IMG/VR virus record: IMGVR_UViG_3300030451_005868
Span: 1 to 64,000 of that record
From: a virus
DNA length: 64,000 nt
Direction: 5' to 3' (one strand)
Made by a program: the position numbers and the translations under genes
Shown: piece by piece, positions 12,162 through 53,888 of the stretch
Layout of the letters: each line of letters begins with the position of its first letter
How positions within the stretch are numbered: position 1 is the stretch's first letter
The notes under the pieces: model-generated
Databases searched by the model: none
The model's input: only the letters and a program-made list of their open reading frames with translations
Told to the model about the DNA's origin: nothing

Positions 12162-12163
12162 AA

Positions 12164-12377: not shown

Positions 12378-12382
12378 AAGAT

Positions 12383-14214: not shown

Positions 14215-14219
14215 AAGAT

Positions 14220-29040: not shown

Positions 29041-29047
29041 ATATTTC

Positions 29048-30945: not shown

Positions 30946-30959
30946 TTATTGATATTTTT
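30938..30959. terminator. Weak AT-only hairpin between convergent genes
   Basis: AAAAATA (30938-30944) and TATTTTT (30953-30959) form a 7-bp A/T stem with an 8-base loop that spans the meeting point of the two convergent genes. It gives T runs on both strands and could act as a bidirectional terminator, but the stem has no G or C and chance is possible in such AT-rich DNA. Confidence 0.3.
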
Positions 30960-33261
30960 GCTTGAACTGTTCGTTGAGCCAATCTAGTTCAAAACTCTTT
31001 TTTAATGCGCTCATATCATGTTTGTGTTGTTGATAATATTCTGTGGCGTCTTTGGCCGCAAGGTATACGTAATCTGCGTATTTGTCTGTACCTAATTGCA
31101 TCCATTTTTTTAATCTATACTTTGACTCCACCGTGGGTGTCATCTGTAATAATTTTAAAACTTCTCTGAAAGTTGTTCTCCAACTCATAATAGCAGTTTG
31201 ATTAAAACGATTTACACAACTTAGAATTGGCACATAATCATGAGGAGCGGACAATGTGAAATCCAAACCAGGCCTTGCTGTTTCCATGACTAATTTTTTG
31301 TTATACAGTAATACTGCTCCATGGCCATATTCTAAACCTGTCACAGGATTACGAGCATTAAAAATATAGTGGCAAGGATTCTTCATTCTATCAGGTTGGA
31401 AGTCAAATTTAAAACTTTCAACAAGATCCTGTTTAGGTGTCACAAAGAAAAAGTAATCTGTTTCACTCATTTGAGCCGCAGTGATGTAGGCCAATGATCT
31501 CATATTGATGCCTTTGCACCATTTTGCTCTTGGATAACTTTTGCGTAATTTTTCAAATTGACTTTGGGCATTTGGCTCATCGTAACTAAGAAACACAATG
31601 TCCATGGGTTTTACCTCATAATCATAGTCAAAATGCACGTGTCTATCAACATCATAAAACTGTGTGAATTTCTGCCTATAAGGAATCAACATGATATCTT
31701 TGGTGGGGCCCCATGAATATATTTTTTCATCTTCCCAATAACTAGGAAAAAAATTAGGCATTTTTTCAATGTTCAAGTCTTTGTTTACCATCCATCTGTA
31801 ATACTTAGGCTCATCATTCTGAAATGAACCAATTGGATCTTGTAGATCAAACACAGTCTTTGGCAACCAATTCTGGAAAAGGTTATCGTGTGCATGATAC
31901 TTGATGTCTTGATAATCACGTAAATAATTCAACTTGGATATTTGTTGTTTCAATGCCCTTGTTGGAATAAGAAATACATTTCCTTCCTTGTTCGTTCCGC
32001 CCAACGGATGCGTATTGTACCATACATGTATTTGATCGCTTTCTAGCACATCTGGAATAAAATTTTTATCTACAGTCTTTAGATCCATAAAGTTTGCAAA
32101 GAACCAAAAATATTCAGTTTTGATATCGTCAATTACGGATTTAAGCACAGTCAAATAACTGTCTACAAAGGGTACTATTCTAGTATTTTCAAAAGGTGAC
32201 GGCCATGTTTTTGTATTTTTAAAACGGACTTGCACACTATCAAAATTTTTATCCTTGATGCATATTTCACCTCCACTTGAGTTTTCCCAAAAACTAGGAT
32301 ACATCTTTGTGTTGTCAATATTACTCTCCGCATCAACTAACTTGATGTGTAATTTTTTACCTTTGTTGAAACGCTTATGTATTTCATAGATGTTACTACT
32401 GGATTTTTCTTGTAGTGTTTCGTTTTTATGGTAGTTAATCTGTTGGTAATCTCTAAGACATTTAAGTTTGGGTAGTTGCTGTTTGAAAGACTTTGTGGGT
32501 ATCAAAAACAGATTACCTTCTTTGTTACTCCCTGGCTTGTACCATGTGTGTATTTGGTCACTTTCAATTGCATCTGGCACATAATATATGTCTGCTGTAC
32601 TCATGTCCACAAAATCTGCAAACATCCAAAAGTATTCTGTCTTTATATCATCTATCACTGTTTTCACAGTATCTAAATAACTGTTTGTAAAGTCAACATC
32701 TCGAGTATTTTTCCAAGGCGATCTACTTGAATCAGTATTGAATCTTACCTGCACAGCATCAAAACTTTGATCATTTATAAAAACTACTCCGCCATAATCT
32801 GCTTCCCAAAAACTGCTGAATTTTCTAGTCATTTTTTTGTCGGTATAATGTATCCTATATTTTTTATTAGCGTTTACACATGGTGTTTCATTGATGTGTT
32901 TTACAGGATGATAATTTACGTGATCGTATTCTCTAAGTGCTTGTAACCTATTGATTTGTTTTTTAAAGGCGTTGGTTGGTATAAGAAACACGTTTCCTTC
33001 TTTACAGGCTACTTGATCTGAATTATTAAACCAAACATGTATTTGATCTTTTTCGTGTTGCTCAGGAATAAAATCAAAGTCTAAAAAAGAGATGTCAACG
33101 AAATCAGCAAACATCCAAAAGTATTCTGTTTTTATATTGTGTATTTCTTGTTTTAAAACATCTAGATAACTTAGATTAAATTGCACCTGCCTAGTGTTGG
33201 CAAATGGAGATTCGTAAGTTGTGTTACCAAAGGTTATCTGGATACTGTCGAATCCATTCAT
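30946..33261 (-). CDS. Triple-repeat protein with C-terminal glycosyltransferase-like domain
   Basis: A 771-residue protein built of three tandem repeats of about 165 residues (about 4-165, 167-338 and 340-510). Each carries IKTEYFWMFADFVD or a close variant (TEYFW at 45, 208 and 382), then DQIHVW, EGNVFLIPT and an SFWE/SYWE ending. Residues about 552-771 resemble the GT-A-like protein at 44338-45234, sharing the start DIVFLSYDEPN and a GLxYGxG block. The repeats show a similar order of elements, so I infer degenerate GT-A-like modules. No DxD is clear in the repeats. It is the last gene of the 16-gene operon and overlaps the upstream epimerase gene by 38 bases. Confidence 0.8.
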   Translation of the reverse strand: MNGFDSIQITFGNTTYESPFANTRQVQFNLSYLDVLKQEIHNIKTEYFWMFADFVDISFLDFDFIPEQHEKDQIHVWFNNSDQVACKEGNVFLIPTNAFKKQINRLQALREYDHVNYHPVKHINETPCVNANKKYRIHYTDKKMTRKFSSFWEADYGGVVFINDQSFDAVQVRFNTDSSRSPWKNTRDVDFTNSYLDTVKTVIDDIKTEYFWMFADFVDMSTADIYYVPDAIESDQIHTWYKPGSNKEGNLFLIPTKSFKQQLPKLKCLRDYQQINYHKNETLQEKSSSNIYEIHKRFNKGKKLHIKLVDAESNIDNTKMYPSFWENSSGGEICIKDKNFDSVQVRFKNTKTWPSPFENTRIVPFVDSYLTVLKSVIDDIKTEYFWFFANFMDLKTVDKNFIPDVLESDQIHVWYNTHPLGGTNKEGNVFLIPTRALKQQISKLNYLRDYQDIKYHAHDNLFQNWLPKTVFDLQDPIGSFQNDEPKYYRWMVNKDLNIEKMPNFFPSYWEDEKIYSWGPTKDIMLIPYRQKFTQFYDVDRHVHFDYDYEVKPMDIVFLSYDEPNAQSQFEKLRKSYPRAKWCKGINMRSLAYITAAQMSETDYFFFVTPKQDLVESFKFDFQPDRMKNPCHYIFNARNPVTGLEYGHGAVLLYNKKLVMETARPGLDFTLSAPHDYVPILSCVNRFNQTAIMSWRTTFREVLKLLQMTPTVESKYRLKKWMQLGTDKYADYVYLAAKDATEYYQQHKHDMSALKKSFELDWLNEQFKQKYQ
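31732..33252 (-). repeat. Three tandem protein-coding repeats, about 165 codons each
   Basis: The three repeat units lie at about 33252-32767, 32763-32248 and 32244-31732. They share motifs in the same order, and short identical DNA stretches can be seen between copies. The copies have diverged, so the duplication is old. This suggests growth of a modular protein by internal duplication. Confidence 0.75.
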
Positions 33262-34186
33262 AATATTTTTCTAATCCTTGTCGTAAGTTATATTCAGGTT
33301 GGTATTTGATTAGATCTTTTGCACGGCTTATATCTAGTGTGCCACGGGCAGGGTACAGACTATGATTACCTATGTCTTCAATATCTGACTTACTGCCTGT
33401 GATATCGATTATAGTTTCAGCAAGTGTTCTTAGACTTGTAGCATTTCCTGTGGTGATATTAAGACTAACATTGGCCACTTTGGATAGTGTGGCTTTTATG
33501 ATGCCTTGTGCCGCGTCTTCTCTATAGGTGAAATCAACTTTGTTGTTTCCGTTGTGTAGTGTAATTGGTTCGTCTTTCACTGCATTTGCAAAAAACTTTG
33601 ACACGACTCTATCAGGCAGATCACCTGGACCATACACTCCGCTGGGTCTCACAATTACATAATTTAAATTATCACGTTTTGAAAACAATTTTACTAGACG
33701 TTCACCTGCCAACTTGGCCTCTCCGTATATATTCATTGGTTTGGTTTTTGATCCTTCACGTGTGCCGTCTTTGAAGTTGCCATACACCATTGATGAACTA
33801 ATGTATACAAATTTTGACACACCAAATTTACTAGAATGCCAAAGCAGATTTGTAGTGGTGTTGATAACTTTGGGTATGCCATTGATTGGATCCTTATCAA
33901 CAATTTTTGCTCTTGGATATGTTGCTAAATGAATCACAGCATCTGGAATATGCGAAAATGCTTTTAAGCAAACTAACCTGTCCAGCACGTCGCCGTCTAT
34001 CACATTGATATTTTTATGATTCCAATTACGCATACGCCAATTCATTAAATTTTTCAATTGTTCGTCGTTCATTAATCCGTATGTGTCTCGGTTATCAACC
34101 ACAATTACTTTGTTATCTTGTGACAATTCTTCCACAATTTTTGAACCAATAAATCCTTTTCCGCCTGTGACTAATATTTTTTTCAT
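33224..34186 (-). CDS. NDP-sugar epimerase/dehydratase (extended SDR)
   Basis: A 320-residue SDR enzyme with NAD-binding VTGGKGFIGS (6-15), SSSMVYG before the catalytic YGEAK (Tyr154, Lys158) and VRPSGVYGPGD, as in extended SDR enzymes acting on nucleotide sugars. It should epimerise or dehydrate an NDP-sugar; the exact substrate is unknown. The gene lies 28 bases below the carbamoyltransferase gene in the cargo operon and its 3' end overlaps the triple-repeat gene. It is a different protein from the galE-like gene at 15343. Confidence 0.85.
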   Translation of the reverse strand: MKKILVTGGKGFIGSKIVEELSQDNKVIVVDNRDTYGLMNDEQLKNLMNWRMRNWNHKNINVIDGDVLDRLVCLKAFSHIPDAVIHLATYPRAKIVDKDPINGIPKVINTTTNLLWHSSKFGVSKFVYISSSMVYGNFKDGTREGSKTKPMNIYGEAKLAGERLVKLFSKRDNLNYVIVRPSGVYGPGDLPDRVVSKFFANAVKDEPITLHNGNNKVDFTYREDAAQGIIKATLSKVANVSLNITTGNATSLRTLAETIIDITGSKSDIEDIGNHSLYPARGTLDISRAKDLIKYQPEYNLRQGLEKYYEWIRQYPDNLW

Positions 34187-34214
34187 TTATTTGTATAGTT
34201 GCCTGTGATACCAA

Positions 34215-35696
34215 TCAACACACTTTTACTCCATACTTTTTGGAAAATGCTTCAGCATCTTCTCTGTCATTTACAATTGGCTGTCCCTTTATGTTCAAAC
34301 TGGTATTCAATAGTATCGGACAACCAGTCTGTTTCTTCCATTCTGTCAGTAGTGCATGAAAGCCTGGATTATCTGTTTTTCGCACAGTTTGTACCCTAGA
34401 AGTGTTATCATAGTGTATTATGGCAGGAAAGTCTTTACCATGCGTACACGCCGCTGTATATTGCATATAAGGGGTGTTTTTAACACCTGTAGGTAGGTCA
34501 AAATACTCGTTTACATCTTCTTCTAATATGGCTGGAGCAAACGGTCTAAACTTCTGTCTCTTCTTAATTGCATTTACCAAATCCTTAATTTCTTTGCCTC
34601 TTGGATCCGCCAACAGCGATCTATTACCAAGTGCCCGTGGCCCAAACTCTGCTCTACCATTTGCAACTCCCACCATTTTGTTTTCTTTCAATTCTTTAAT
34701 AATAGCGTCTACAGGATATTCGCCATCTATGTTGTGTCCCAAGAATGGATGTTGCCAATCAATCTGTTTACTTTCTGATGCCGCTATACATCCTATACTT
34801 GAACCTGCATCACCTGGATTGGGAATAATCCAAATATTTTCAAACAATCCTAAATTTGCAAGAGTTCTGTTTGCGGCACAGTTCAATGCAACACCGCCTG
34901 CATAAACTAAATTTTTGTTTCCAAATCCTGCATACTTGCTGGCACGTATCCATAAGTCTGTGAGACATTCTTCAGTGACTGCTTGTACACTTGCGGCTAG
35001 ATCCATTACGTCTGCATTGGGTTTCCAATTGCCTATACCTTTGTGTAGATTACGTTTTAATCTAAATGGATTACGTGTCACAAAATCTTTGTATATTTCA
35101 TCTTTGTATATTGGCCGACCATAAGCACTCATACCCATCAAAATATATTCTTCTTCAGCAGGTTTAAGTCCACATCGTTGTGTAAACGCCGAATACAATA
35201 TACCTATGCTGTGAGGATATTGTTGTGATTCCATGTGCTGTATTGCTTTCTGATTATAACCTTTTGAAATAGATATTGTTTCCCATTCTCCAATTGCATC
35301 CACGGTAAGAATTACTGCATCCTTAAATCCAGATGTAAAATATCCTGCGGCGGCATGAGAGGCATGATGTTTTACATATTGGTCAATTCTCAAACCAAAT
35401 TTTTTCATATGATGTTCTGGCATTTCTTTTCTGTCAAAAGCAGTTCTAAATTGTGTGGCATAAAATTGTCTTGTTTTTTTCAGTATAGGTTTTTCGTAAT
35501 AGACAACCTTATCAATAGGAACATAAGATACTGCTTCATTTACAATATCCCAATTTAGATAGTGATCATTTTTTATTTTTGAATATCTTTCACTATGAGC
35601 CGCCCATAATATCTTGCCAGGCGCTTTGTTGTCCTCAAACTCTACCACTGCCATAGCGGCATCGTGGTTCATACAATTTACCCCTAGTATTCTCAT
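34215..35696 (-). CDS. NodU/CmcH-type carbamoyltransferase
   Basis: A 493-residue protein with the family blocks in order: N-terminal GVNCMNHDAA, HHASHAAAGYF (His pair), LMGMSAYGRP, YAGGVALNCAANR, GRAEFGPRALGNRS and CPILLNTSLN near the end. Such enzymes use carbamoyl phosphate and ATP to carbamoylate hydroxyls of sugars or antibiotics. It overlaps the GNAT-like gene by 4 bases. In this operon the acceptor is probably a sugar built by the neighbouring glycosyltransferases and epimerase, which is inference. Confidence 0.9.
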   Translation of the reverse strand: MRILGVNCMNHDAAMAVVEFEDNKAPGKILWAAHSERYSKIKNDHYLNWDIVNEAVSYVPIDKVVYYEKPILKKTRQFYATQFRTAFDRKEMPEHHMKKFGLRIDQYVKHHASHAAAGYFTSGFKDAVILTVDAIGEWETISISKGYNQKAIQHMESQQYPHSIGILYSAFTQRCGLKPAEEEYILMGMSAYGRPIYKDEIYKDFVTRNPFRLKRNLHKGIGNWKPNADVMDLAASVQAVTEECLTDLWIRASKYAGFGNKNLVYAGGVALNCAANRTLANLGLFENIWIIPNPGDAGSSIGCIAASESKQIDWQHPFLGHNIDGEYPVDAIIKELKENKMVGVANGRAEFGPRALGNRSLLADPRGKEIKDLVNAIKKRQKFRPFAPAILEEDVNEYFDLPTGVKNTPYMQYTAACTHGKDFPAIIHYDNTSRVQTVRKTDNPGFHALLTEWKKQTGCPILLNTSLNIKGQPIVNDREDAEAFSKKYGVKVC

Positions 35697-36256
35697 TTAA
35701 TCTTGAACCAACCCTTTGCACGTTCCAGGTATTTCTCCCATTCTTCTAATTCAATATCATATTCAAAATTTTGTGAAGTTTCATTTACTTGTAATTCTTT
35801 AGCACCATTTTTAATATGAAAATTACGTGCCATGTCTGTTAATGGACTCAAGGTTACTAATCTGTTTAGATGATTAGACTTTTTAACCATTTTGTACACT
35901 TCATTTACAATAGCACGTCCACCGCCTCTTTTTTTGGCCCATACAGTGTAGGCTATTGCAATCGATCCTTGAACTCCCGCACGATGTACAGCCTTCATGG
36001 CGGCATCCTTACTTAGAACTTCCATTTCTTCAACTGTTTTAGGGACTTCATCAGTGAAAGCAAAACACATTACAGCGGCAATGTCTCCTTCGCTGTCCTT
36101 TAGTCCATAAATTTTTCTACCATATGCTTGTCTAAATTCGAGATTAAGTTCAGGACGTACCGGATCCTCCTCACAATCGATGTATGGTAATTCTATTAAT
36201 TCATACTTGGGTTTTTTCTCAAGTACTTTTGCAATTTTTTGTTTGATCGTATTCAT
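35693..36256 (-). CDS. GNAT-like acyltransferase
   Basis: A 187-residue protein whose C-terminal part fits a GNAT fold: a strand AIAYTVWA, the CoA-loop-like KKRGGGRAIVNEVY, and a late PLTDMARNFHIKNGA segment typical of the GNAT motif B helix. The substrate could be an amino sugar or protein. It overlaps the carbamoyltransferase gene by 4 bases and follows a small ORF by 1 base. The assignment rests on pattern only. Confidence 0.65.
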   Translation of the reverse strand: MNTIKQKIAKVLEKKPKYELIELPYIDCEEDPVRPELNLEFRQAYGRKIYGLKDSEGDIAAVMCFAFTDEVPKTVEEMEVLSKDAAMKAVHRAGVQGSIAIAYTVWAKKRGGGRAIVNEVYKMVKKSNHLNRLVTLSPLTDMARNFHIKNGAKELQVNETSQNFEYDIELEEWEKYLERAKGWFKIK

Positions 36257-36257
36257 A

Positions 36258-36362
36258 TTATTTGTATATAAATGGGTCTTTTTTCTTTAATTCTTTAAGT
36301 CTTTTTCTATAGGCCATTTCTTGTTTGATCTTTGTGATCAAGTTTTTAAGCCATGTGATCAT
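36258..36362 (-). CDS. Small Lys-rich helical protein (34 aa)
   Basis: A 34-residue frame beginning at ATG 36362-36360, which overlaps the TGA of the upstream gene (ATGA), and ending one base before the GNAT-like gene. The product is one charged helix ending KKKDPFIYK, a C-terminus I associate with tiny proteins common in marine T4-like phages. Tight coupling on both sides supports it. It contains no Cys and does not look like a modified-peptide precursor. Confidence 0.6.
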   Translation of the reverse strand: MITWLKNLITKIKQEMAYRKRLKELKKKDPFIYK

Positions 36363-37159
36363 GTTTGTCCTCCTATTATTCTTTTAAACTCTGGTAACAT
36401 TAATTTTACAGCATCTTCATGCGATTCGTCAAGTGGATGAGTTGTGCCACGGGCATAGTCATTCATAAGTGCCCACTGGTTGAATCCCATCATTCTTTCA
36501 CCAAAACTATACCAATTGGTTATATCAATCTCATTGAACATATTTTCCATCAGAGGATCTAACGACTTTTTATGATTTAAATTGTCATAAAACACACAGT
36601 TGTCTGCTAGAGTAAAAAAATATGGTATTTTTCTTTTTTCCAAAATATTTTGTAACCAAATAATACTCTTCCAACTTAGATAAGTTTCGTGGTAATCGTT
36701 AGCGGCGTATTTGTATAGACTACTTGCAAAAGGTCTTACTCCAGCATCCTGGAAATTTTTTTGTCTAATTTTATGTAGTTTCATTTGTACTTGATTATTA
36801 TGTAACATTGATTCTGCTTCAGCATCTCCGGCTTCTGTCTCCCACGGGGTAATTGACGCCCATCTATTATTTTCTAAAATTGCGTGTGGTGGCATGGCCC
36901 AGTCATATCTGGAAATAAAAGTCCACATCACTGCAACACATTTGACATCTGTGTTTTTGGTGACAGTTTCAAATACTTTTCTGGCTATCGCTTGGTTTCC
37001 GATACCACCTCTGGCACAGCAAAGATAATTGTCTGCCACTTGGCTTTGTTCGTAAATTTGATAGGCCCATGATTTTTTACTAGGGTACCTACTCTCAAAA
37101 TCATCACTCAATTCGTTTCCAAAAGTGAAACTACAACCGCCTGAAATAAAATTACTCAT
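36359..37159 (-). CDS. SGNH hydrolase-like protein (Cys for Asp in block I)
   Basis: I start at ATG 37159 (266 residues), overlapping the radical SAM gene stop region; an in-frame start 42 bases upstream is less likely. Block I is SGGCSFTFGNE (about 6-16), where the usual GDS reads GCS, followed by an Asn segment GIGNQAIAR, AVMWTFISR and a C-terminal DESHEDA with Asp-x-x-His. It resembles the SGNH protein at 20447 and the N-terminus of 40939-42984. Ester hydrolysis, for example deacetylation of a glycan, is possible. Confidence 0.65.
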   Translation of the reverse strand: MSNFISGGCSFTFGNELSDDFESRYPSKKSWAYQIYEQSQVADNYLCCARGGIGNQAIARKVFETVTKNTDVKCVAVMWTFISRYDWAMPPHAILENNRWASITPWETEAGDAEAESMLHNNQVQMKLHKIRQKNFQDAGVRPFASSLYKYAANDYHETYLSWKSIIWLQNILEKRKIPYFFTLADNCVFYDNLNHKKSLDPLMENMFNEIDITNWYSFGERMMGFNQWALMNDYARGTTHPLDESHEDAVKLMLPEFKRIIGGQT

Positions 37160-38354
37160 AAATTTTAAACTCCTTATCCAGTTCTGGAAAAGTTTTGGCA
37201 AAATTTTCCTTACGAATATAGTCCACAGATTTAATGGAACTTATTAATTTGTTATACCAATTTTCAACTTTTTTTCCAGGAGTATCTTTAAGGTAGTCCA
37301 AAGCAGACTGTAATTCAGATTTGTATATATCGCATTTTTTTATTTTTTCTAAAACTTTATTTTTGAACGAAGTTGGCAATTGCTGAACATCATAAACTTC
37401 AGGTTGGTGTAAAACATTTATATACCAAAAATCAGGCTCCCATTCTTTTACAACTTTTGCTAATTCGTCAAGATAAAAAATGTTGAAAAAATTAATTGTA
37501 GTGCAAACCTGAATAGATAAATTTTTTAATCCACTTGCCTTAAATTTTTCAATATTTTTCTTAACTTCGATCCATTTAGCATTTGTCCTTTGGTATTCAA
37601 AACGGTCTCCCACATCATCTATACTAAATGCTACTTCTATTCTTTTGAAATGCGGCCATATGTCCTTTATTGCTTTATCAGGATACTGTGTGCCGTTTGT
37701 ATTGTAATGTACGTCAATTAATTTTGAAGACCCTTTATCTATACACTTTTGTAAAATATCAAATTGTTCTTTTATCATTAAAGGCTCACCGCCTGTGATT
37801 TCAAAAAATCTAATTTGTTCCACATGCTCAGCAATACTATCTAAAAAAGCATTTTTTTCTCTCGGCCAGGCTCCCTCTTTATTATATTGTTTCCATTGTT
37901 TATCTTGGTCTGGATTTAATTTAATCATATCGGATACCCATTGCGAACTTGAATGTGGTGAACATATCCTACATTTCAAGTTGCAAATATTTCCAAGTTT
38001 TAGATCAATAAAATGCGGAGCAACGATGTTTTTCTTAATGGCATACTGACCTAACGTGCCCGCCTTATTCCACATGTGCTGTCTTTTTGAAGTTTTACCC
38101 ACTGCTTCCTCCTTCCAGCAACTGGAACATCCATCTGGCCTTTTTCCATCTAAAAACTCTTGCCTTAAAGTGTCCATAAAATTTGAATTTTGAACTTCTT
38201 TAATTTTGTTTTTTAATGTTGTGTATCTATTGTTATTACTATCTGTAATTGTTCCTTTGTATAGACAACACGGCCTATAGTTACCGGTTGCAGTGGTCTC
38301 TAGTGAAGTCCACGGAAGATGACACAAATTAGAATCTAAATACTGTGCCACCAT
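37152..38354 (-). CDS. Radical SAM protein with N-terminal twitch-like Cys module (1)
   Basis: A 400-residue protein. An N-terminal module has Cys11 in a C-x3-W motif, then Cys29-Cys30 and Cys76/Cys79 in GCSSCWKEE. The radical SAM core follows, with ICNLKCRIC (Cys124, 128, 131) and ITGGEPLM. Cysteines outside the CX3CX2C motif suggest a second iron-sulphur cluster, as in twitch/SPASM enzymes, but here the module precedes the core. The substrate is unknown, with peptide or sugar the main options. It overlaps both neighbours and is very AT-rich. Confidence 0.85.
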   Translation of the reverse strand: MVAQYLDSNLCHLPWTSLETTATGNYRPCCLYKGTITDSNNNRYTTLKNKIKEVQNSNFMDTLRQEFLDGKRPDGCSSCWKEEAVGKTSKRQHMWNKAGTLGQYAIKKNIVAPHFIDLKLGNICNLKCRICSPHSSSQWVSDMIKLNPDQDKQWKQYNKEGAWPREKNAFLDSIAEHVEQIRFFEITGGEPLMIKEQFDILQKCIDKGSSKLIDVHYNTNGTQYPDKAIKDIWPHFKRIEVAFSIDDVGDRFEYQRTNAKWIEVKKNIEKFKASGLKNLSIQVCTTINFFNIFYLDELAKVVKEWEPDFWYINVLHQPEVYDVQQLPTSFKNKVLEKIKKCDIYKSELQSALDYLKDTPGKKVENWYNKLISSIKSVDYIRKENFAKTFPELDKEFKIYE

Positions 38355-40949: not shown

Positions 40950-42984
40950 TGTACCATTCTCCTATTATTGGAAAAGTTTTTTCAAAACTCTTGCCTCTAC
41001 GTGTATCGTATTGACTGTAGAAAACTTTAAAGTCTTTTTGTAATTTATCTTGTGTAGCCGCACCAGCGTGTGGAGTTTTAACCACATCCAAATAATCTAT
41101 CAGCCTTTTTGTGTGTTCTATTTCCATGCCCTCTAACCATTTCTCATTATTAGTTAAGAACTTTTCAATATCACCCTTAAATTTATTTCTAAGATCATCT
41201 GGTAGCACTAAAGGCGATTGAAAACTAGGAAACCTAAGTATATTCAACGTAAAGTTAATTGATCTTTTATGATGTTTCATGCCTACAAGTATTTCTAAAA
41301 ATTTTGATAATGACTCTAAACATAGTGCGTTAATTGTACACATATTATGGACACTGTTTGGCACTCCAGATAAAATTATATCATTTAAATTTTCGTACCA
41401 GTATTCAAAATCCATGCCATCCCTGATATATTCTGCCTGTTGAAATACTGATTCATTTGAGGTATATAAATCCACTGCATGAAAATTCCAAAGTTTTTTC
41501 TTAAATCTTTCTATTATTTCCTTTTTGGCACCAAGATTTGTGTTAATTGCTAGTCGCATATTTGGATTAATTTTATCACCTTGCGTTTCAATCCAATCTA
41601 AGAGACGCCATAAATTAGGAGACATCATTGGCTCTCCCCCAGTAATTCTTAATTCATCTAAAGTTTTATGAAGATCACTTTCCCACCATTTGTAAAATGC
41701 CTCCACATATGGATTGGTTTCATCTTTTTTATATGGCTCTGCAGATTCATGACTATGAGTAAAATGATTACGACCGTCTGATTGTAGTCCAGTATATGGT
41801 CCTTTTTGCTTGATGTCATTTGCCCAGGTTGTACTAAAAGCAGGATTACAATATGTGCAGGCAAATTGACAAGTTCTGTCAAACGCAATTTCTAAAGTTT
41901 TCAAGTTGTGATTTGCTTGATGATTGGTTGCAAAAGCAGTATGCAAATCTTCATTAGTAAAAATTTTACTTTTATATACTCTATCACTAATTGCATTACG
42001 ACCCATGTCCTCAATTTTCCAACAATATTCGCAACCAGCAGGTCTTTCGCCGCACTGCATCTGCCTACGCTGTTCTTTTTTTTGTTTGGTATTGTGTATT
42101 GCACTTGGGTTAGTTTTTATCTCTTCTAGATCAATTTTGTGTGGCAATGGATGATGACAACTTGTAGTCATACCTGAACCTAGCCATATAGTGGCATTAT
42201 ACCATTTGGCTCCGCAAAAACTTGCTGACTTTGTATCTAATACTTGTTTTTTATAATCTATATCATTCATGGTATTTTGCACATGGTCATCTTTTTTAAA
42301 TAATTTTTCAAACTTATCATTTGGCAAAAAATTTTCTGTCTTCAAAATAATGTTTTTTGCCCAATAGTACTGTGCCAACCTAGATGCATCATGTTCACTT
42401 TGACTGTTTTTATTTGCATAATCTGTAGTGAATTCTTTTATTCCTTTCTTGCCATCATAAAAAATAAACTTACTCCAATCAATTTCGTTGTATAATCTTT
42501 TTTCACTTATACTTGAGAATGTATTTCTTAACACATCTTTATGCTCAATCATCATTGTAAAACTAATGCTTTGACTAGTGAGAAATTGTTGTGTGCGTAA
42601 AATGTGTTCTAGTGTTCTATAATATTGTCTGTCTAAATTGAAAAAATGTTTATTATAAAACTCATGTTTCTCTTTCTGTGGGTGTTGTCCATAAGCAACC
42701 TTAAAATTAGTGTTTTGATCTTTAACAACTAATGATTCACTTCCTAAAACATAATCTTTTTGTACAACTTCATATTTCTCTGGTCCAGTCCACATCACAT
42801 AAAGATGACTTATTAAAGATCTTAATTCTAAAACGCTATCAATTACTTTCCTGCTGATTGTCTCATTACTTGCATTTTTAAAAGAAAAGGTTTCATAGTC
42901 TTTTCCTTGTAATTCTGCCAAATACCTTGGCCATGACCAACCAGTATTTTTGTACCCACCCCATCCGTGACAAACTATTTTCAT
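40939..42984 (-). CDS. Fusion of degenerate SGNH-like domain and radical SAM protein (4)
   Basis: A 681-residue fusion. Residues 1-210 align with the SGNH-like proteins of this window: SWPRYLAEL, NASNETISRKV (about 37-47), LYVMWTG (61-67) and SEHDASRLA (196-204). The GDS motif reads HGWGGY and the catalytic Asp seems replaced, so it is likely inactive as an esterase and may bind instead. From about 255 comes the Cys module (C257, C276, CEYC 318-321) and radical SAM CQFACTYC (372-379), then ITGGEPMM. The second part is closest to the protein at 42981-44351. Confidence 0.85.
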   Translation of the reverse strand: MKIVCHGWGGYKNTGWSWPRYLAELQGKDYETFSFKNASNETISRKVIDSVLELRSLISHLYVMWTGPEKYEVVQKDYVLGSESLVVKDQNTNFKVAYGQHPQKEKHEFYNKHFFNLDRQYYRTLEHILRTQQFLTSQSISFTMMIEHKDVLRNTFSSISEKRLYNEIDWSKFIFYDGKKGIKEFTTDYANKNSQSEHDASRLAQYYWAKNIILKTENFLPNDKFEKLFKKDDHVQNTMNDIDYKKQVLDTKSASFCGAKWYNATIWLGSGMTTSCHHPLPHKIDLEEIKTNPSAIHNTKQKKEQRRQMQCGERPAGCEYCWKIEDMGRNAISDRVYKSKIFTNEDLHTAFATNHQANHNLKTLEIAFDRTCQFACTYCNPAFSTTWANDIKQKGPYTGLQSDGRNHFTHSHESAEPYKKDETNPYVEAFYKWWESDLHKTLDELRITGGEPMMSPNLWRLLDWIETQGDKINPNMRLAINTNLGAKKEIIERFKKKLWNFHAVDLYTSNESVFQQAEYIRDGMDFEYWYENLNDIILSGVPNSVHNMCTINALCLESLSKFLEILVGMKHHKRSINFTLNILRFPSFQSPLVLPDDLRNKFKGDIEKFLTNNEKWLEGMEIEHTKRLIDYLDVVKTPHAGAATQDKLQKDFKVFYSQYDTRRGKSFEKTFPIIGEWYNGI

Positions 42985-44351
42985 GCGTTTTTACACTCCT
43001 GCCAAAATTCTATCATTTCTGGAAATGTGTTTTGAAAATTAGTGTTGCGTCTGCGATCGTGTTCGTTAAAAAATGCGTAAAAGTTCTTTTTTAGCATAGC
43101 ACTTGCGTTTGCGTTTTTTTTCCAGTAAGCAAGATTGCGAAGCATTTTTTGAATCTCAAAGTCCTTGAACTTGTCAAACCCTTTGCCCTCTCCAGAATTT
43201 TGCCTCATGTATTCTATGTTGTCCTCGTGAATGCTCATATATGACTCAGGTAACAGAGTGATCTGTTGCCACACCGGTTGTCTCAACAGGGGCACATCAA
43301 ACCACACACGTTGATACTCCTTGCTGTATTTCTGTCTAAGATCCAATATCTTTTCCAGTAGTTTGTCCATGCTGGTTATACTGAGGTTGTTGTATGTGCA
43401 AATAAACGTTATGCTGTTTCTGTAGGGTATTCGGTACAGAAATTCCTCCACATTGTCCATCATGCGATTGAAGTCCAGTCCGTTACGTATGTACTCAGCA
43501 CGTTTGCCATAAGCATCCACACTCACAAACTGCATCACGTGTTCAACTTTTTTTTGCAGGCATATCTCCTGCAACATGTTGAAATATCTAGTTTTCAACT
43601 TCACATCCGGTGGACACATGTTGCTGGTGATGTTCAAATGCAGATCCTGTTTGGGATGATCTATTATGTATTGAAACACCTTGTATGTGTTTTTGTCCAT
43701 CATGGGTTCACCTCCGGTCATACGAAAGTGTTTTAGATTTTTGTATAGGTCAGGCCACCACTTCCAGAATGCTTCCACGTAAGGATTTGATTCACGTTGT
43801 GGTATGGGTCTCTTCCTGCCTTGAAAGTGTTCTGGAGCGTTGTGTGGTGGCGATGTGGGAAACTCACCGTAAAGGTCTGTTTCTTTGCCCCAGGCAGTGG
43901 AAAACTGTGGCGAACAGTAACTACACTTGAAATTACAAGCATGGTTAAAATTGACTTCCACGTACCTGGGAGTCCAACTTGTGGTCATTGGATTTTGTTT
44001 GATGGCCTCAAAGTCCTGCATGGCCCATGGTTCACCTGATCTATAATGTCTGTCTGACATTTCACCGGTGTCTTCCATTTTCCAGCAGTAGGAACATCCG
44101 TCTGGACGTTCGCCTTGTAGCATCTTGAATCTTTGATCTAGTTTTTCTGCGGTGTTGTGCAGTGCCGCAGGATTGGTTTTCACTGCTTCTGCATCTATTT
44201 CGTGCAAGGGAGGGTGATAACAACTGTTGGTCAAACCAGTGGGCAGATGGAAACTGACTTGATTCCACTTGGCCAAACACATGGTAGGCGACACTTCCTG
44301 TAATTTTATCTGTGCCCGATGTGCATCTGCTTTATAATCACTGGTACTCAC
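42981..44351 (-). CDS. Radical SAM protein with N-terminal twitch-like Cys module (5)
   Basis: A 456-residue protein with N-terminal module MCLAKW (Cys25), Cys44 and GCSYCWKMED (Cys86, 89), then radical SAM ACNFKCSYC (Cys139, 143, 146) and MTGGEPMM. It is a close paralogue of the radical SAM part of 40939-42984, sharing the GERPxGCxYCWKxED pattern, yet its DNA is visibly richer in G and C. This points to separate origins for the two copies. It overlaps its neighbours at ATGA-type junctions. Confidence 0.85.
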   Translation of the reverse strand: MSTSDYKADAHRAQIKLQEVSPTMCLAKWNQVSFHLPTGLTNSCYHPPLHEIDAEAVKTNPAALHNTAEKLDQRFKMLQGERPDGCSYCWKMEDTGEMSDRHYRSGEPWAMQDFEAIKQNPMTTSWTPRYVEVNFNHACNFKCSYCSPQFSTAWGKETDLYGEFPTSPPHNAPEHFQGRKRPIPQRESNPYVEAFWKWWPDLYKNLKHFRMTGGEPMMDKNTYKVFQYIIDHPKQDLHLNITSNMCPPDVKLKTRYFNMLQEICLQKKVEHVMQFVSVDAYGKRAEYIRNGLDFNRMMDNVEEFLYRIPYRNSITFICTYNNLSITSMDKLLEKILDLRQKYSKEYQRVWFDVPLLRQPVWQQITLLPESYMSIHEDNIEYMRQNSGEGKGFDKFKDFEIQKMLRNLAYWKKNANASAMLKKNFYAFFNEHDRRRNTNFQNTFPEMIEFWQECKNA

Positions 44352-45234
44352 GATCTTGCACTCCTCTGTTGATGTGTGGTGGCATCACAAACCTATAAAA
44401 CACACTTTCACTATCATTGTATTCTGCTATGGGCATGGCCAGTTGCTGTCTAAGACTGTTGCCAAACAATTGAAGTTCTTCGTCTATGTCATTGTCTTTG
44501 ACTTCCTGAAAATATTTCGCCAACTCTGACAGATCTCTCACACTGAATATGTCATGTTTTTTTTCCAACACTGTGTAAAAGCAACCCATTCTTGCACCCA
44601 ACATTGCCCACTTGCCATAAGATTGGTCCGCACCAATTGTACACCATGTGCTCAGTATCCGCAAGTTATTGGGCCACATTTTTTTGAAATCACCTGCAGG
44701 AATAGGCTTGCCTTTGTCTGTGCTCATTTTTACACCTTCTCTCCATCCGGCCACAAATGCCTGCTCTGCGGAGGAATTGATCACAGTGGTTGAATAACAA
44801 TTGTGTAAATTTTCATGTGGAACTCCCCAACAAAAGTCAATTTGATTTTCTTCCGAGTCTGCGTTTTCGTGTGTTCTCATACCAAGGCAAGTCTGCTTGT
44901 CCCAACCCACGATGCCACCATTGCCGTACACCAATCCATTCACACTGTTACGGCCTCTCCATCTATGCACTGCTTTTCGATTGGTTTTGCTCCAGTCCAG
45001 TGTTTCAAGTAAGAATTTTTCGTCCAATATATTATCACCGTCTATGCTGATAAAAAAATCAGTCTGTGCCAGTTCCGCGGCGGCCTTGTGTGCAGAATCA
45101 AATCCCACAACACCGTCCACACGTTTTGCCCATGGCACTTTGTTTTTGAGGTCTGCCCAATTTTGTTCTTTGTTGGGTTCACGAAAACTTATAAAAACAA
45201 AATCTAAATCACTTACTCTGATTCTATCAGCCAT
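44338..45234 (-). CDS. GT-A-like glycosyltransferase (family unknown)
   Basis: A 298-residue protein starting with LDFVFISFREPN, then a helix and QTDFFISIDGDN with a DxD-type metal site (Asp65, Asp67), and later RGRNSVNGLVYGNGG. The order is that of GT-A nucleotide-sugar transferases. The same layout appears in the C-terminal domain of the protein at 30946-33261. It overlaps the radical SAM gene by 14 bases. Donor and acceptor are unknown. The GC content is higher than in most of the operon, like the next gene. Confidence 0.7.
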   Translation of the reverse strand: MADRIRVSDLDFVFISFREPNKEQNWADLKNKVPWAKRVDGVVGFDSAHKAAAELAQTDFFISIDGDNILDEKFLLETLDWSKTNRKAVHRWRGRNSVNGLVYGNGGIVGWDKQTCLGMRTHENADSEENQIDFCWGVPHENLHNCYSTTVINSSAEQAFVAGWREGVKMSTDKGKPIPAGDFKKMWPNNLRILSTWCTIGADQSYGKWAMLGARMGCFYTVLEKKHDIFSVRDLSELAKYFQEVKDNDIDEELQLFGNSLRQQLAMPIAEYNDSESVFYRFVMPPHINRGVQDREYQ

Positions 45235-45518
45235 GTGTCTCCTCCATCAACCACTGCGTTGGGCCAGTGAATATCACCCTGTTCAAAACTATACCCTCGT
45301 GTAGAACTTTGTAATACTGAATATTGTGTTTTGCGTTTTTGTTTTGTTCTTAAAGCAGGTCCAAATTTAGTCCATGCATAGTTTTCTTCACCTTGCTTGA
45401 TTATTTCTAATTTTTTCTGTAAACTAACTTCACACTTTTTGCCTTGAATCATAACAAAATGTTTTTTCTCCCTCACAGGCGGCAAGTTACGTATGGCGTC
45501 CAGCAAACTATCTGACAT
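45213..45518 (-). CDS. Hypothetical protein (101 aa)
   Basis: I use ATG 45518, overlapping the stop of the upstream gene, giving 101 residues; a longer frame from 45566 would run deeper into that gene. The product is Lys-rich with a helical middle and a basic KTKQKRK-like patch. No motif is recognised. It is coupled to glycosyltransferase-like genes on both sides. Confidence 0.65.
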   Translation of the reverse strand: MSDSLLDAIRNLPPVREKKHFVMIQGKKCEVSLQKKLEIIKQGEENYAWTKFGPALRTKQKRKTQYSVLQSSTRGYSFEQGDIHWPNAVVDGGDTWLIESE

Positions 45519-46296
45519 ACAAATCCTTTTCATGATAGTGCCACACACGTGTGATACGACTGTCACCTAAATATATGTTTTCTCCTGATCTGTTGGGATA
45601 GAGATACTCGTTTTGATTTTTGACATGCTGTAGATTGTTGACGGCTGGTTTGTGATGTAAAAATTTAAACCATTCATAGTCTATGAGATACTGATTTGTT
45701 GGGTCAATCAGTCTATAGGCCAAAGCATAAACCACATCTGTGCTTGGATATGTATCATGACAGTCAATCAACATGGTGGTTCTTACATATTTCCAGTTTT
45801 TGGTGATATATTCAGCCGTTTTAAAAAACTTTTGTGCCCATGTGCTTTTTCTAAAGTACATCAATCCATTGTAGATATTGGGCAATTGGTTTGTTTGCCA
45901 TAACTTTCTATATGGTGTATCTATGACCAGTTCGTCTTTGTAGTTTCTACAATTAACACTGAACACCAAGTTGTGTTGCCATAAGTGATACCACCACCAA
46001 TCAGTATTTGTGCTCCATAACATGTCACTTTCCAGTTTTATGGTGTGAGTAAAAGGTGAAACTGCAAATGCTTTGTATTCGTTTGCCCATTTTGTACTGT
46101 GTTCAGCACTTTCGTCGTTGTGCATCACTTTGACTAGATCAACAGCCGGATGTTCAAAAGCACTGGCCTTATCTGTAACCACGCAAATTTTGTTTTCTTT
46201 GTTGCAATATTTTATACTCTTGGCCAATTTGATACTGAGTTCAACATAATCTGTAGTTTCGTTATTTTGTGCAAACCATAAAAAACCCTTATGCAT
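45508..46296 (-). CDS. GT-A-like glycosyltransferase
   Basis: A 262-residue protein beginning GFLWFAQNN and running through a helix to HTIKLESDMLW (about 84-94), where a Glu-x-Asp replaces the usual DxD. A later stretch with TYPSTDVVYALAY and a His-rich end fits a GT-A fold such as family 8. It overlaps the next glycosyltransferase-like gene by 8 bases. The sugar and acceptor are unknown. Confidence 0.65.
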   Translation of the reverse strand: MHKGFLWFAQNNETTDYVELSIKLAKSIKYCNKENKICVVTDKASAFEHPAVDLVKVMHNDESAEHSTKWANEYKAFAVSPFTHTIKLESDMLWSTNTDWWWYHLWQHNLVFSVNCRNYKDELVIDTPYRKLWQTNQLPNIYNGLMYFRKSTWAQKFFKTAEYITKNWKYVRTTMLIDCHDTYPSTDVVYALAYRLIDPTNQYLIDYEWFKFLHHKPAVNNLQHVKNQNEYLYPNRSGENIYLGDSRITRVWHYHEKDLYVR

Positions 46297-47038
46297 TGGC
46301 CATCTCCTTGTTTAACACATGCACGTCTTGATTTTCTACATAATTTATTTCATCATTGTATTGCCATGCTATGCCCGTGTCTGACATTTTAACAATTTGA
46401 CAATCTGGCGGCAGTGTTGGCAACTTTAACGGGAGTGTGAAATACGGCATGAACCCATTAGACTGTTGTAGTGCAATGGCAAATGCATAGTCGTTACGAA
46501 ATTTTTTATCATATATTCTGTACATGTCTGTGAAATAAGCATAGAATGATTTTACATATTTTAAAGTATCAAAAACTCGTCTTGCACGTTTGCCTTTGCG
46601 GAAAATAAACACCGTGGCCCATACCATATCAATCATGCTGTATTTTCGGAAGTCAAAACTGTTCCTACCAGATAGGTCATGTGCTTGTTTACTGATTAAA
46701 AAATCGTAATCTGTGTCCAAAAATTGTTTTAGATTGTCAGTATAGACAAAATAATCTATATCCATAACCAATGTCACATCGTAGGGTGACAGTTCATACG
46801 CAAGATGTCTATCCACATTCAACCATTGTTCGCCATTTCTTGTGTTACCGTGTTCAGGTTCTACAAATTTGTAATTGATTAGGCCCAACGGCTTTAATTT
46901 TTTGAATGTATCAAAATTTGTAACAACTGTGATCTCTAATTGTAGATTTTTTTTGATTAGATACACACAGCGTTCTAATATTTTGTGATAATTTATTTTT
47001 TCTGTGTTAAAACAGAATAAAAGTACACCTTTTGTCAT
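46289..47038 (-). CDS. GT-A-like glycosyltransferase
   Basis: A 249-residue protein with a Rossmann-like start GVLLFCFNTEKINY and VMDIDYF (Asp93, Asp95) as a DxD motif. It resembles the protein at 45508-46296 in length and order. Its start overlaps the stop of the first operon gene by one base. A glycosyltransferase is the best reading, with donor unknown. Confidence 0.65.
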   Translation of the reverse strand: MTKGVLLFCFNTEKINYHKILERCVYLIKKNLQLEITVVTNFDTFKKLKPLGLINYKFVEPEHGNTRNGEQWLNVDRHLAYELSPYDVTLVMDIDYFVYTDNLKQFLDTDYDFLISKQAHDLSGRNSFDFRKYSMIDMVWATVFIFRKGKRARRVFDTLKYVKSFYAYFTDMYRIYDKKFRNDYAFAIALQQSNGFMPYFTLPLKLPTLPPDCQIVKMSDTGIAWQYNDEINYVENQDVHVLNKEMANA

Positions 47039-47355
47039 TAGCCTTCTCGTTTTGCAAATGTTTTAGACATTTGGTGATACGAACTAATGGCTTCTTGATT
47101 TCTTTGTATTAATGTTTGTATAAATTCTGTAGGACTATCGATTTCTACAGGATTTTGATTGGTATCTAAAATAAAAAACTTGTCATTTGTTTCTGCAAGT
47201 GTTTTAGCCAAACAGATTGTTTCCGCATCTGCACGAAAGATATGTTCCTTGTATACCACAACAAGTCGCGAGTGTGCTTTCTCAATGGCATTGCGTTTTG
47301 CCACAGCCACATTGTATGAAAGATCTGATTGTTTTTTTAGTTCGCCAATGTCCAT
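47038..47355 (-). CDS. Hypothetical protein (105 aa), first gene of the cargo operon
   Basis: A 105-residue helical protein with a basic N-terminal half and acidic C-terminal part, and no motif I know. The ATG at 47355 lies 6 bases after a TATAAT box, so its mRNA would be nearly leaderless. It is the first of 16 tightly packed minus-strand genes; being present with them does not show a shared role. Confidence 0.65.
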   Translation of the reverse strand: MDIGELKKQSDLSYNVAVAKRNAIEKAHSRLVVVYKEHIFRADAETICLAKTLAETNDKFFILDTNQNPVEIDSPTEFIQTLIQRNQEAISSYHQMSKTFAKREG

Positions 47356-47361
47356 ACCACA

Positions 47362-47390
47362 ATTATATTGTAATTATGGATGTAAATCAA
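47362..47390 (-). promoter_or_regulatory. Promoter TTGATT-17-TATAAT for the cargo operon
   Basis: On the minus strand TTGATT (47390-47385) and a perfect TATAAT (47367-47362) are 17 bases apart, in the 50-base gap after the structural gene. The ATG at 47355 follows by 6 bases. No other clear promoter is visible down to 30946, so this one may drive about 16 kb. Confidence 0.65.
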
Positions 47391-47405: not shown

Positions 47406-48365
47406 TTATGATACTGAGTTGCTGACTTCTGCGTTTGAAGACGACTGAATTGCGGCGGCTAAACCTTGTGCATCTGTTGGATGTACTTCAATTAAGGCCA
47501 TTGTCATGATAGGCGCTTCGTTGGGATTTGTCGGTACACCGGCAGTGTTACCAGCAGTGAATGTATCATCCCCAGCGGCATCAGTTGATACCATTTTGAC
47601 TGTCATTACCGTAGCACTGCCAACCGCGGCGTCTAATTTTGCTGAGATCTCCACCGTGTTTGAAGTGTAGCCTGAGTTGTCAGATGTCAATTTGATAATT
47701 GTTGTATAGCCTGTTCCTAAATCATGAAAGCCATTTGCTAGACCGTTAGTGGTCAATGTTTCACCTGATCCTGATCTTGTGCTGGCTTGAGACCCAATAT
47801 CTAAGTTTCCTATTGCTGTGGTGGTTAGATCATCAAAAACTGTGTCTTTGTCTCCGTCAATACCTGTTGTAGCACTAGGATCAACTCTTATTTTTCCACC
47901 TGCATTGAAAAAATGTCTCATAGCATCTGCACTGGCAAAGGTAACTGATCGTTCAATAGTAGATGTGTTATTCCATGTACTTGCATTTGAACTTGAACCT
48001 ACAGCGTTAGTTCCAAGTGCTGTTGCATTTGGTGAACCTGCCGCAACCGATGCCGCCAATGTGGCCAAATCCGCCTCTACTGCTGATTTGATTTCTATTG
48101 TTTGGCCTGCCGCAACTGAAGTTCTTGCTGTGAGTGAATCATTTGTGTGATTGGCAATGTTGTCCATTCCTGTTAGAAGTGAGTTCCATTGTGATGCATT
48201 GATTGTGCCTGCTCCTGCTGTCACTGTGGCTATGTGAGTCTGTCCTAATCCGTATTCTCCTGATCCTGTACCAGCAAAGTGGTTGTATCCAAACGGACTT
48301 GAACTGTTGTTCACAAACGTGTTATACGTGTCTGCTGTAATTGTATCACCTGATGCGTATGCCAT
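47406..48365 (-). CDS. Virion structural protein-like, low complexity
   Basis: A 319-residue protein rich in Ala, Thr, Ser and Gly with few charged residues, predicted mainly beta with regions of low complexity, as in phage fibre and baseplate proteins. It follows three fibre paralogues with a 1-base gap and has GGAG before its ATG. The start (MAYASGDTITADTYN) is also in the style of these structural proteins. Its precise role in the virion is unknown. Confidence 0.7.
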   Translation of the reverse strand: MAYASGDTITADTYNTFVNNSSSPFGYNHFAGTGSGEYGLGQTHIATVTAGAGTINASQWNSLLTGMDNIANHTNDSLTARTSVAAGQTIEIKSAVEADLATLAASVAAGSPNATALGTNAVGSSSNASTWNNTSTIERSVTFASADAMRHFFNAGGKIRVDPSATTGIDGDKDTVFDDLTTTAIGNLDIGSQASTRSGSGETLTTNGLANGFHDLGTGYTTIIKLTSDNSGYTSNTVEISAKLDAAVGSATVMTVKMVSTDAAGDDTFTAGNTAGVPTNPNEAPIMTMALIEVHPTDAQGLAAAIQSSSNAEVSNSVS

Positions 48366-53881: not shown

Positions 53882-53888
53882 TATTTAT
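53882..53888 (-). promoter_or_regulatory. T4-like late promoter box ATAAATA
   Basis: Minus-strand ATAAATA contains the stop codon of the giant gene (53887-53885) and ends 8 bases before the ATG at 53874. Same design as the other stop-overlapping boxes. Confidence 0.5.

Follow-up and report, generated by a model that had tools for sequence, protein, structure and literature searches.

A candidate fibre-linked modification module of aquatic myoviruses and the micropeptide that accompanies its carbamoyltransferase

What might a virus make with a long run of radical SAM, glycosyltransferase-like, sugar and carbamoyl-transfer genes placed next to its fibre genes, and do these genes act as one unit? 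The question is raised by the window analysed here, namely the 64,000 nucleotides at positions 1 to 64,000 of IMG/VR record IMGVR_UViG_3300030451_005868, itself an 82,668-base fragment. With about even confidence, we regard the run as a modification module that is linked to fibre genes and conserved across a large group of aquatic myoviruses, and which contains, as a separate portable unit, a carbamoyltransferase and a micropeptide of 29-44 amino acids that are obligate partners.

Layout and conservation of the operon

The operon consists of 16 co-directional open reading frames on the minus strand (47355..30946), listed below with the adjoining fibre-region gene.

g01, 47038..47355, minus strand: 105 aa, no family match; opens the operon; homologs in 45/80 related loci
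g02, 46289..47038, minus strand: 249 aa, GT-A-like, conserved DxD; 74/80 loci
g03, 45508..46296, minus strand: 262 aa, GT-A-like (ExD); 75/80 loci
g04, 45213..45566, minus strand: about 100-117 aa, likelier start at internal ATG 45533 or 45518; 39/80 loci
g05, 44338..45234, minus strand: 298 aa, GT-A-fold glycosyltransferase-like; 77/80 loci
g06, 42981..44351, minus strand: N-twitch radical SAM 1 (NF033640, E 1e-97), an orthologous lineage of its own; 80/80 loci
g07, 40939..42984, minus strand: N-twitch radical SAM 2 by NF033640, with an additional N-terminal domain (1-235)
g08, 39657..40949, minus strand: N-twitch radical SAM 3, N-terminus SPASM-like
g09, 38336..39679, minus strand: N-twitch radical SAM 4, likely start ATG 39670
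g10, 37152..38354, minus strand: N-twitch radical SAM 5
g11, 36359..37201, minus strand: SGNH-like on the basis of a GCSFTFG motif alone, likely start ATG 37159
g11b, 36258..36362, minus strand: 34-aa micropeptide MITWLKNLITKIKQEMAYRKRLKELKKKDPFIYK, C-terminus DPFIYK near-invariant
g12, 35693..36256, minus strand: 187 aa, GNAT-like by inspection alone; 24/80 loci, missing from most relatives
g13, 34215..35696, minus strand: class III O-carbamoyltransferase, Kae1-like plus YrdC-like, of the peptide-linked subfamily
g14, 33224..34186, minus strand: NAD-dependent nucleotide-sugar epimerase/dehydratase (Pfam Epimerase, E 1e-42; phrog_540)
g15, 30946..33261, minus strand: 771 aa, three repeats followed by a C-terminal domain homologous to g05
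f1, 47406..48365, minus strand: fibre-region gene directly upstream of the operon in every core-complete relative

From 47355 down to 30946 the junctions measure -1, -8, -59, -22, -14, -4, -11, -23, -19, -50, -4, +1, -4, +28 and -38 bases; thus, 13 of the 15 are overlaps and the remaining two are gaps of 1 and 28 bases, as the first-pass annotation had described in speaking of near-continuous overlap or touching. The overlaps of 59 and 50 bases become smaller if internal ATGs serve as starts, and the fibre genes immediately upstream run in the same direction as the operon. The case for the single promoter that had also been proposed is weak: a promoter-like match (10/12) is present at 47390-47362, but such sites barely exceed those in shuffled sequence (84 observed versus 66 +/- 9). 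The late promoter TATAAATA was also searched for in the operon, and was absent.

Synteny was examined in 80 IMG/VR loci, collected with one radical SAM gene as bait. All eight core genes were present in 52 of these, where they kept an identical order (52/52) and lay directly behind fibre gene f1 (52/52). Chance can be excluded for this arrangement because it is conserved in relatives, and the genes are not scattered independently among the IMG/VR loci. The view of the operon as a coherent unit thus stands, while the term 'cargo' that had been applied to it does not, the operon being a fixed trait of the lineage and a conserved module. Related loci also carry sugar genes, namely a DegT aminotransferase, SGNH-like proteins and a nucleotide-sugar epimerase; these, together with the coherent syntenic unit, make a modified glycan the natural reading, and the product of the whole module is probably an O-carbamoylated glycan. 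Cultured phages gave no match when the operon was compared with them by megablast, and our literature search found no paper on this combination of genes.

Radical SAM, glycosyltransferase-like and sugar genes

All five proteins that had been taken for radical SAM enzymes are confirmed as such: each matches the N_Twi_rSAM family (NF033640, E 1e-87 to 1e-120) at 293-401 bits against a curated cut-off of 170, and the CX3CX2C motif is kept in all five translations. They represent five orthologous lineages that are retained as a set in relatives, the extra N-terminal domain of g07 being seen in some relatives only. That five radical SAM orthologs occur as a fixed set adjoining fibre genes strongly suggests a single, specific product; no literature was found on NF033640 in phages.

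Of the three GT-A-like enzymes originally proposed, g05 has a GT-A-like fold, while g02 and g03 were assigned from their DxD and ExD motifs. The predicted structure of g05 (AF2, pLDDT 89.5) retrieved the GT-A enzymes RmlT, WrtF, BcsA and SunS in Foldseek (E 2e-4, at a low TM of 0.33), and its DGDN motif is invariant. In g02, D93 and D95 are invariant and a match to DUF5672 is weak and below cut-off; profile searches of solved structures with g02, g03 and g05 yielded no homolog. The predicted repeat protein with a glycosyltransferase-like domain (g15) is corroborated, since its C-terminus aligned to the g05 profile (44338-45234) in hhalign at 98.5%, and the sugar epimerase (g14) is secured by its Pfam match. 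The SGNH-like and GNAT-like labels of g11 and g12 come from motifs, and searches of Pfam and PHROG gave neither of them family support. Of 182 loci that bear the peptide, 80 have an SGNH-like cluster next to it.

The carbamoyltransferase and its micropeptide

The identification of g13 (493 aa) as a carbamoyltransferase was correct: it matches Pfam Carbam_trans_N/_C and is of the NovN/GdmN/TobZ type. Carbam_trans_C (E 4e-55) documents the C-terminal YrdC-like domain; Carbam_trans_N/_C and a YrdC-type match were the sole domains detected. In GdmN the catalytic base is H27 and the iron ligands are H133, H137, D156 and D333 (PMC9633730); in our subfamily alignment they correspond to the invariant H100, H195, H199, D218 and D384, short forms included, and in g13 itself to H11 (in NHDAA), H110 and H114 (in HHASH), D133 and D296 (in NPGDAG). 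A class III Kae1-like enzyme is marked by HxxxH, two iron-binding Asp residues and a His that acts as general base, and g13 has all of these. The subfamily resembles TobZ, GdmN, NovN, VtdB and NodU in its fold, its Kae1-like and YrdC-like domains and its iron-site residues, and differs from them in its micropeptide partner, its pocket motifs and its roughly 68 Kae1-like-only members, which are short, lack the YrdC-like domain and mostly lie in a replication context. The subfamily invariants YExPxxK, D-x-I-G-E and NLHxG align with helix 1, loop 2 and loop 4' of the GdmN acceptor pocket, and are kept in both genomic contexts and both enzyme lengths, the specific residues occurring in less than 10% of the cyanophage (Nol) enzymes. 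The shared pocket thus suggests one common acceptor for the subfamily, the peptide being the single partner seen in common, although a conserved pocket may also reflect descent.

The micropeptide gene g11b had not been named in the first-pass annotation, and is the main find of this study. Peptide loci were sought by DNA patterns and with the enzyme as bait. For the linkage analysis, loci were collected by enzyme sequence alone, the peptide not being used as bait; it was present in 79 of 80 loci of the g13-type enzyme, the 80th being cut at the contig start, and in 0 of 63 loci of the Nol enzyme. It also occurred in all 61 loci that hold both g07 and g13. The pair has a second context, between the primase and a DnaB-like helicase and devoid of radical SAM genes in the flanks examined; the peptide-carbamoyltransferase unit is therefore portable. 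Since the pair also occurs outside the fibre and glycan context, g13 is not merely one tailoring enzyme of a glycan line.

The dN/dS values of the peptide (about 0.15 and 0.32), together with the freedom of most wobble positions in the tail, indicate protein-level selection, and a Shine-Dalgarno-like site was found in 127 of 181 cases. The N-terminus is variable and yet maintains an amphipathic pattern, while the DPFIYK tail is near-invariant. Apart from viral contigs, the peptide was found solely in MAG contigs that look viral; among 84,980 genomes there were 8 hits, 2 of them by chance and the others phage-like. The cultured-phage collection yielded no match except one single-cell virus sequence, and tblastn against cultured phages found nothing, although the low-complexity filter may mask the peptide. 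When peptide and enzyme were modelled by AF2 as a linked chain, the peptide helix was confident (pLDDT 80-88), but docking was not supported, the block holding the tail reaching a pLDDT of only about 65.

By analogy with HypE, the peptide would be the protein partner of the carbamoyltransferase, and its likeliest role would be that of acceptor or of docking tail. In the maturation of NiFe-hydrogenase, the class II enzyme HypF acts on the Cys of PRIC at the extreme C-terminus of HypE, which accepts the carbamoyl group (PMC12130793, PMC4506123). The likeness is one of logic: a Kae1/YrdC carbamoyltransferase has a constant partner with a near-invariant extreme C-terminus. HypE is a large enzyme with a Cys acceptor, whereas the 34-aa peptide has a tail free of Cys and no sequence relation to it, and the acylphosphatase and zinc domains of HypF were not detected in g13. 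In the proposed mechanism, the GT-A-like, N-twitch radical SAM and sugar enzymes would build an unusual glycan. Judging from conserved residues, the YrdC-like domain would make carbamoyl-AMP and the iron-binding Kae1-like domain would transfer the carbamoyl group. The amphipathic, basic N-terminal helix may position the peptide through membrane or partner contact, and the DPFIYK tail would insert into the Kae1-like domain on its acceptor side. There its Tyr or Lys would accept or carry the carbamoyl group, or the tail would dock and so activate the enzyme. Enzymes that lack the YrdC-like domain would have to obtain carbamoyl-AMP or another donor from elsewhere. These YrdC-less enzymes count against the partner mechanism, as do the AF2 result, the possible descent of the pocket and the more than one-third of loci with over 100 bases, often whole genes, between peptide and enzyme. 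We propose only tentatively a previously undescribed, two-component viral carbamoyl transfer, in which the micropeptide would be acceptor or carrier of a dedicated enzyme, both in the fibre-linked module and alone beside replication genes, and in which the YrdC-less enzymes probably borrow the host's activated donor.

Rival readings and described relatives

Could the entire operon, carbamoyltransferase included, be a glycan assembly line for virion (fibre) proteins, with the peptide as a minor accessory? Its fixed position behind f1, the fold of g05 and the sugar genes of relatives agree with this, but the pair is also found among replication genes with no glycosyltransferase or radical SAM gene nearby, and we consider this account rather unlikely. 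Remodelling of the host surface has a similarly low probability; here the enzymes would make or alter a glycan of O-chain type on infected cells, to exclude superinfection or to act against grazing. The closest described islands are read in this way, such a role having been proposed for the LPS genes of P-SSM2 (PMC2984593) and the host-recognition clusters of pelagimyophages (PMC7029224); those islands are hypervariable, however, and the fixed core order and content seen here better fit a virion-linked or essential function.

These islands also correct the initial impression that no such system had been described, as similar fibre-adjacent islands exist in pelagimyophages, P-SSM2 and S-CAM1. 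The pelagimyophage host recognition cluster combines glycosyltransferases with radical SAM cassettes and is hypervariable and non-syntenic (Zaragoza-Solas et al. 2020, PMC7029224); the operon shares with it the place beside fibre genes, the presence of glycosyltransferase-like and radical SAM genes and the marine myovirus setting, but differs in its fixed core, its five orthologous N-twitch radical SAM genes, its peptide and its carbamoyltransferase. P-SSM2, S-SSM7 and S-CAM1 likewise have a NodU/TobZ-type (Nol-like) carbamoyltransferase with sugar-nucleotide genes, in a cluster that adjoins fibre genes in P-SSM2 and S-CAM1; this enzyme belongs to another subfamily (about 30% identity) and is accompanied by neither the DPFIYK peptide nor the radical SAM set. 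Among cultured phages, Pelagibacter phage Mosig has a carbamoyltransferase with MoaA-like radical SAM genes in its vicinity, and Vibrio phages K566 and K567 have radical SAM genes (in tandem in K566), all at low identity; the peptide was not found in the examined stretches of these three. Thus, the type of island is already known, and what is new is the fixed gene set of the operon.

A cofactor or natural product of the RiPP kind, as in mycofactocin (PMC7491314), would have the peptide as a precursor, on which the five radical SAM enzymes would act first, glycosylation and carbamoylation following. As in mycofactocin, one locus holds a short conserved peptide, SPASM/twitch radical SAM enzymes and glycosyltransferase-like genes, and radical SAM genes lie near the peptide in 91 loci. 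The precursor motif is not matched, however, the tail is near-invariant and the N-terminus variable instead of a conserved leader with a variable core, and the replication-context pair has no radical SAM genes in the examined flanks; a RiPP precursor is expected never to be without the radical SAM enzyme that matures it, which is not what the peptide loci present, and the reading is quite improbable. A role of the peptide as radical SAM substrate was accordingly rejected as the main reading, since the peptide-enzyme unit exists without these genes.

It is very doubtful that the micro-ORF is a regulatory leader, i.e., an arrest or attenuator peptide controlling translation of the carbamoyltransferase. 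The last six residues before the stop are near-invariant, the Tyr codon of the tail is strongly biased to TAC, and the peptide lies close upstream (within 100 bases) in 97 of 160 loci; but the distance exceeds 100 bases in the other 63, and 500 in 48 of these, with whole genes in between, all three stop codons are used, and the amphipathic N-terminal pattern is kept over the whole peptide. Hypermodification of phage DNA bases is extremely improbable: radical SAM, glycosyltransferase and carbamoyltransferase enzymes occur in known pathways of this kind and the pair's other setting is a cluster of replication genes, but the annotated genes of the operon include no methyltransferase, TET or hydroxymethylase, and the module is fibre-linked.

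The partner reading of the micropeptide matters beyond this locus, as the carbamoyltransferase or the radical SAM set is carried by hundreds of aquatic viral contigs, and a 34-aa gene is below the size reach of many gene callers. Leads to function that can be tested directly are rare, and a short peptide that is the obligate companion of a single enzyme offers one. The cyanophage carbamoyltransferase has been annotated as an auxiliary metabolic gene of pyrimidine metabolism (PMC9146016); the pairing described here recasts such a 'carbamoyltransferase, auxiliary metabolic gene' as a defined two-protein system, and points to a viral chemistry in two parts that would be new.

The module is a syntenic block

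The window comes from a viral contig of 82,668 bases, the DNA polymerase of which is closest to those of the jumbo myoviruses Phosso and Atu_ph07 (46-50%); no tRNA genes were found in the window. The following features of the window are discussed here:

53885-63991, ORF of 3368 amino acids matching the giant virion structural protein family phrog_10938
47406-48365 (-), fibre-region gene (f1)
47355-30946 (-), operon
40939-42984 (-), second N-twitch radical SAM gene (g07), with an extra N-terminal domain (residues 1-235) that is missing from many orthologs
36258-36362 (-), 34-amino-acid micropeptide (g11b)
28895-29635 (+), short DegT/DnrJ-type aminotransferase-like gene, the Pfam PF01041 alignment covering 40 residues only

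All 16 ORFs of the operon proposed by the first-pass annotation are present, one being the micropeptide frame, which was perhaps counted there, although not named. Near-continuous overlap was borne out at 13 of 15 junctions, the remaining two being gaps of 1 and 28 bases. The five radical SAM proteins all fall in N_Twi_rSAM (NF033640), far over the curated cut-off and with CX3CX2C retained; the carbamoyltransferase (g13) is of the NodU/TobZ type with both domains present, g14 is an NAD-dependent epimerase, and the C-terminus of the repeat protein g15 is homologous to the GT-A-like g05. Among the three GT-A-like assignments, that of g05 was supported by a GT-A-like fold and an invariant DGDN, while g02 and g03 were assigned by conserved DxD/ExD motifs; for the SGNH-like and GNAT-like labels, motifs are the sole basis.

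An IMG/VR scan with g07, which made no use of the peptide tail pattern, matched 482 stretches, of which the best 80 were retained. When all operon proteins were mapped on these 80 loci (contigs of up to 354 kb), a single architecture was found, consisting of f1, g02, g03, g05, five radical SAM genes, the peptide and the carbamoyltransferase. The order was identical in all 52 of these loci that had eight core genes, as expected of the proposed syntenic block; g09 and g10 were in reversed order in about half of the 80. In a maximum-likelihood tree, 94 radical SAM proteins separated into five orthologous lineages, needing no more than the minimum of four label changes; the five enzymes are thus old paralogs maintained together as a set. 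In cultured phages, the operon had no DNA-level match and g07 no protein match. The cultured Vibrio phage K566 (L086) carries several radical SAM genes in tandem at 10711-16200 and is a possible laboratory model.

The earlier statement that no such system had been described did not stand, since pelagimyophages are already known to carry islands next to fibre genes in which glycosyltransferases occur with radical SAM cassettes (PMC7029224). In P-SSM2, two clusters together comprise 24 LPS genes (PMC2984593), and the carbamoyltransferase clusters of the cyanophages P-SSM2 and S-CAM1 adjoin fibre genes, as does the operon. It is the fixed five-radical-SAM module that is a new form among these islands; for the peptide-carbamoyltransferase pair, no description was found in the literature searched.

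The micropeptide is linked to the carbamoyltransferase

Homologs of the micropeptide (33-34 amino acids) retain the tail DPFIYK even where the relatives' radical SAM proteins share no more than 57-60% identity. Scanning viral contigs for DPFIYK-stop, a set motif-selected by design, returned at least 120 stretches with mostly basic peptides of 29-44 amino acids. Taking these stretches and the radical SAM loci together, 160 of 184 peptides had a g13-type carbamoyltransferase downstream on their own strand, 97 of them at a distance of 100 bases or less; many exceptions were loci ending soon after the peptide. The claim of linkage is based on locus sets collected without the motif. Reciprocally, the peptide was present in 79 of 80 loci collected by the g13-subfamily enzyme alone, the sole exception having a carbamoyltransferase gene that begins 53 bases into its contig, in 61 of 61 loci with both g07 and g13 (among the best 80 of 482), and in 0 of 63 loci retrieved with the P-SSM2 Nol enzyme; all these counts include IMG/VR near-duplicates and denote loci, not independent events, although two sets contain 45 different peptides each. 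Across 84,980 genomes of bacteria and archaea, a search yielded eight hits; two are attributable to chance, and the other six are marine MAG contigs that carry the peptide, module-gene homologs being clear in five and weak in one. The virus sequence AG-345-D19, from a single amplified cell, has a peptide with the tail DPYIYEE, the carbamoyltransferase and a radical SAM gene consecutively.

The unit occurs in two settings. In the fibre context it follows radical SAM and SGNH-like genes; in the replication context, found in another phage group, it lies between DnaG-like primase and DnaB-like helicase genes near DNA polymerase genes, and radical SAM genes are absent from these loci. In about 68 loci (including L255-L304, L096 and L109) the peptide-linked enzyme has 300-345 amino acids, with the Kae1-like domain only and no YrdC-like domain; those examined were all of the replication context, usually with the helicase gene directly next.

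Several side observations were made. The peptide occurs twice in four loci (L016, L070, L074, L075), and in every pair the tail of one copy has diverged (KDPYEYK, EDPFIYF, KKPFIYW). The peptide-enzyme interval of locus L237 (about 1909-2050) contains, by inspection only, a short DUF1289-type Cys-rich-like frame (CIKVCRLDLDNMCTGC...), and in many replication-context loci peptide and enzyme are likewise about 250 bases apart. Full-length DegT genes (cluster 15) occur near the peptide in relatives.

Protein-level selection, enzyme fold and catalytic residues

Over the last 24 peptide codons, dN/dS was about 0.15 in the fibre context and 0.32 in the replication context, most of the wobble positions in the tail were variable, and a Shine-Dalgarno-like site preceded the peptide in 127 of 181 cases; together, these sequence patterns argue that the peptide is conserved at the protein level. 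Among peptides gathered independently of the exact tail pattern, DPFIYK is the exact ending in 54 of 59 and 46 of 49 non-identical DNA copies. The penultimate Tyr codon, at 36264-36266 (-) in the window, is TAC there and in 96 of 107 non-identical DNA copies (L006-L085, L225-L304), while TAT predominates at the other Tyr positions of those peptides and enzymes (Fisher p 4e-15 and 1e-19, the copies being related and not independent). As TAT AAA TAA would give a T4-type late promoter (TATAAATA), we would guess that TAC avoids it.

AF2 modeling of the L237 chain, read through the peptide into the enzyme, gave pLDDT 90 and pTM 0.83, with a helical peptide (pLDDT 80-88) and a tail-bearing block at about 65; Foldseek with the enzyme model placed GdmN, NovN, VtdB and TobZ at the top, followed by TsaD/Kae1, although AF2 results and E-values carry no information on chemistry. 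Residues that serve GdmN as iron ligands and general base (PMC9633730) are invariant in the alignment of peptide-linked enzymes, short forms included. Within the motifs YExPxxK, D-x-I-G-E and NLHxG, conservation of Y, E, P, K, I, E, N, H and G is 92-100% among the peptide-linked enzymes (77 long, 68 short), against less than 10% in 51 Nol-type enzymes. These motifs align with GdmN acceptor-pocket elements, loop 4' being placed by rough alignment only. With such subfamily-specific pocket residues in long and short peptide-linked enzymes alike, the simplest inference would be a single acceptor common to all contexts, and the only common partner seen across them is the peptide.

A possible role for the pair

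The nearest logical precedent, by analogy and not by membership, is HypF-HypE, in which a Kae1/YrdC-type carbamoyltransferase modifies the PRIC motif at the very C-terminus of its obligate partner (PMC12130793, PMC4506123). We propose that the peptide may bind the carbamoyltransferase, with its tail acting as acceptor, carrier or docking element and its helix localising the complex, and that the GT-like and radical SAM enzymes would build an unusual glycan.
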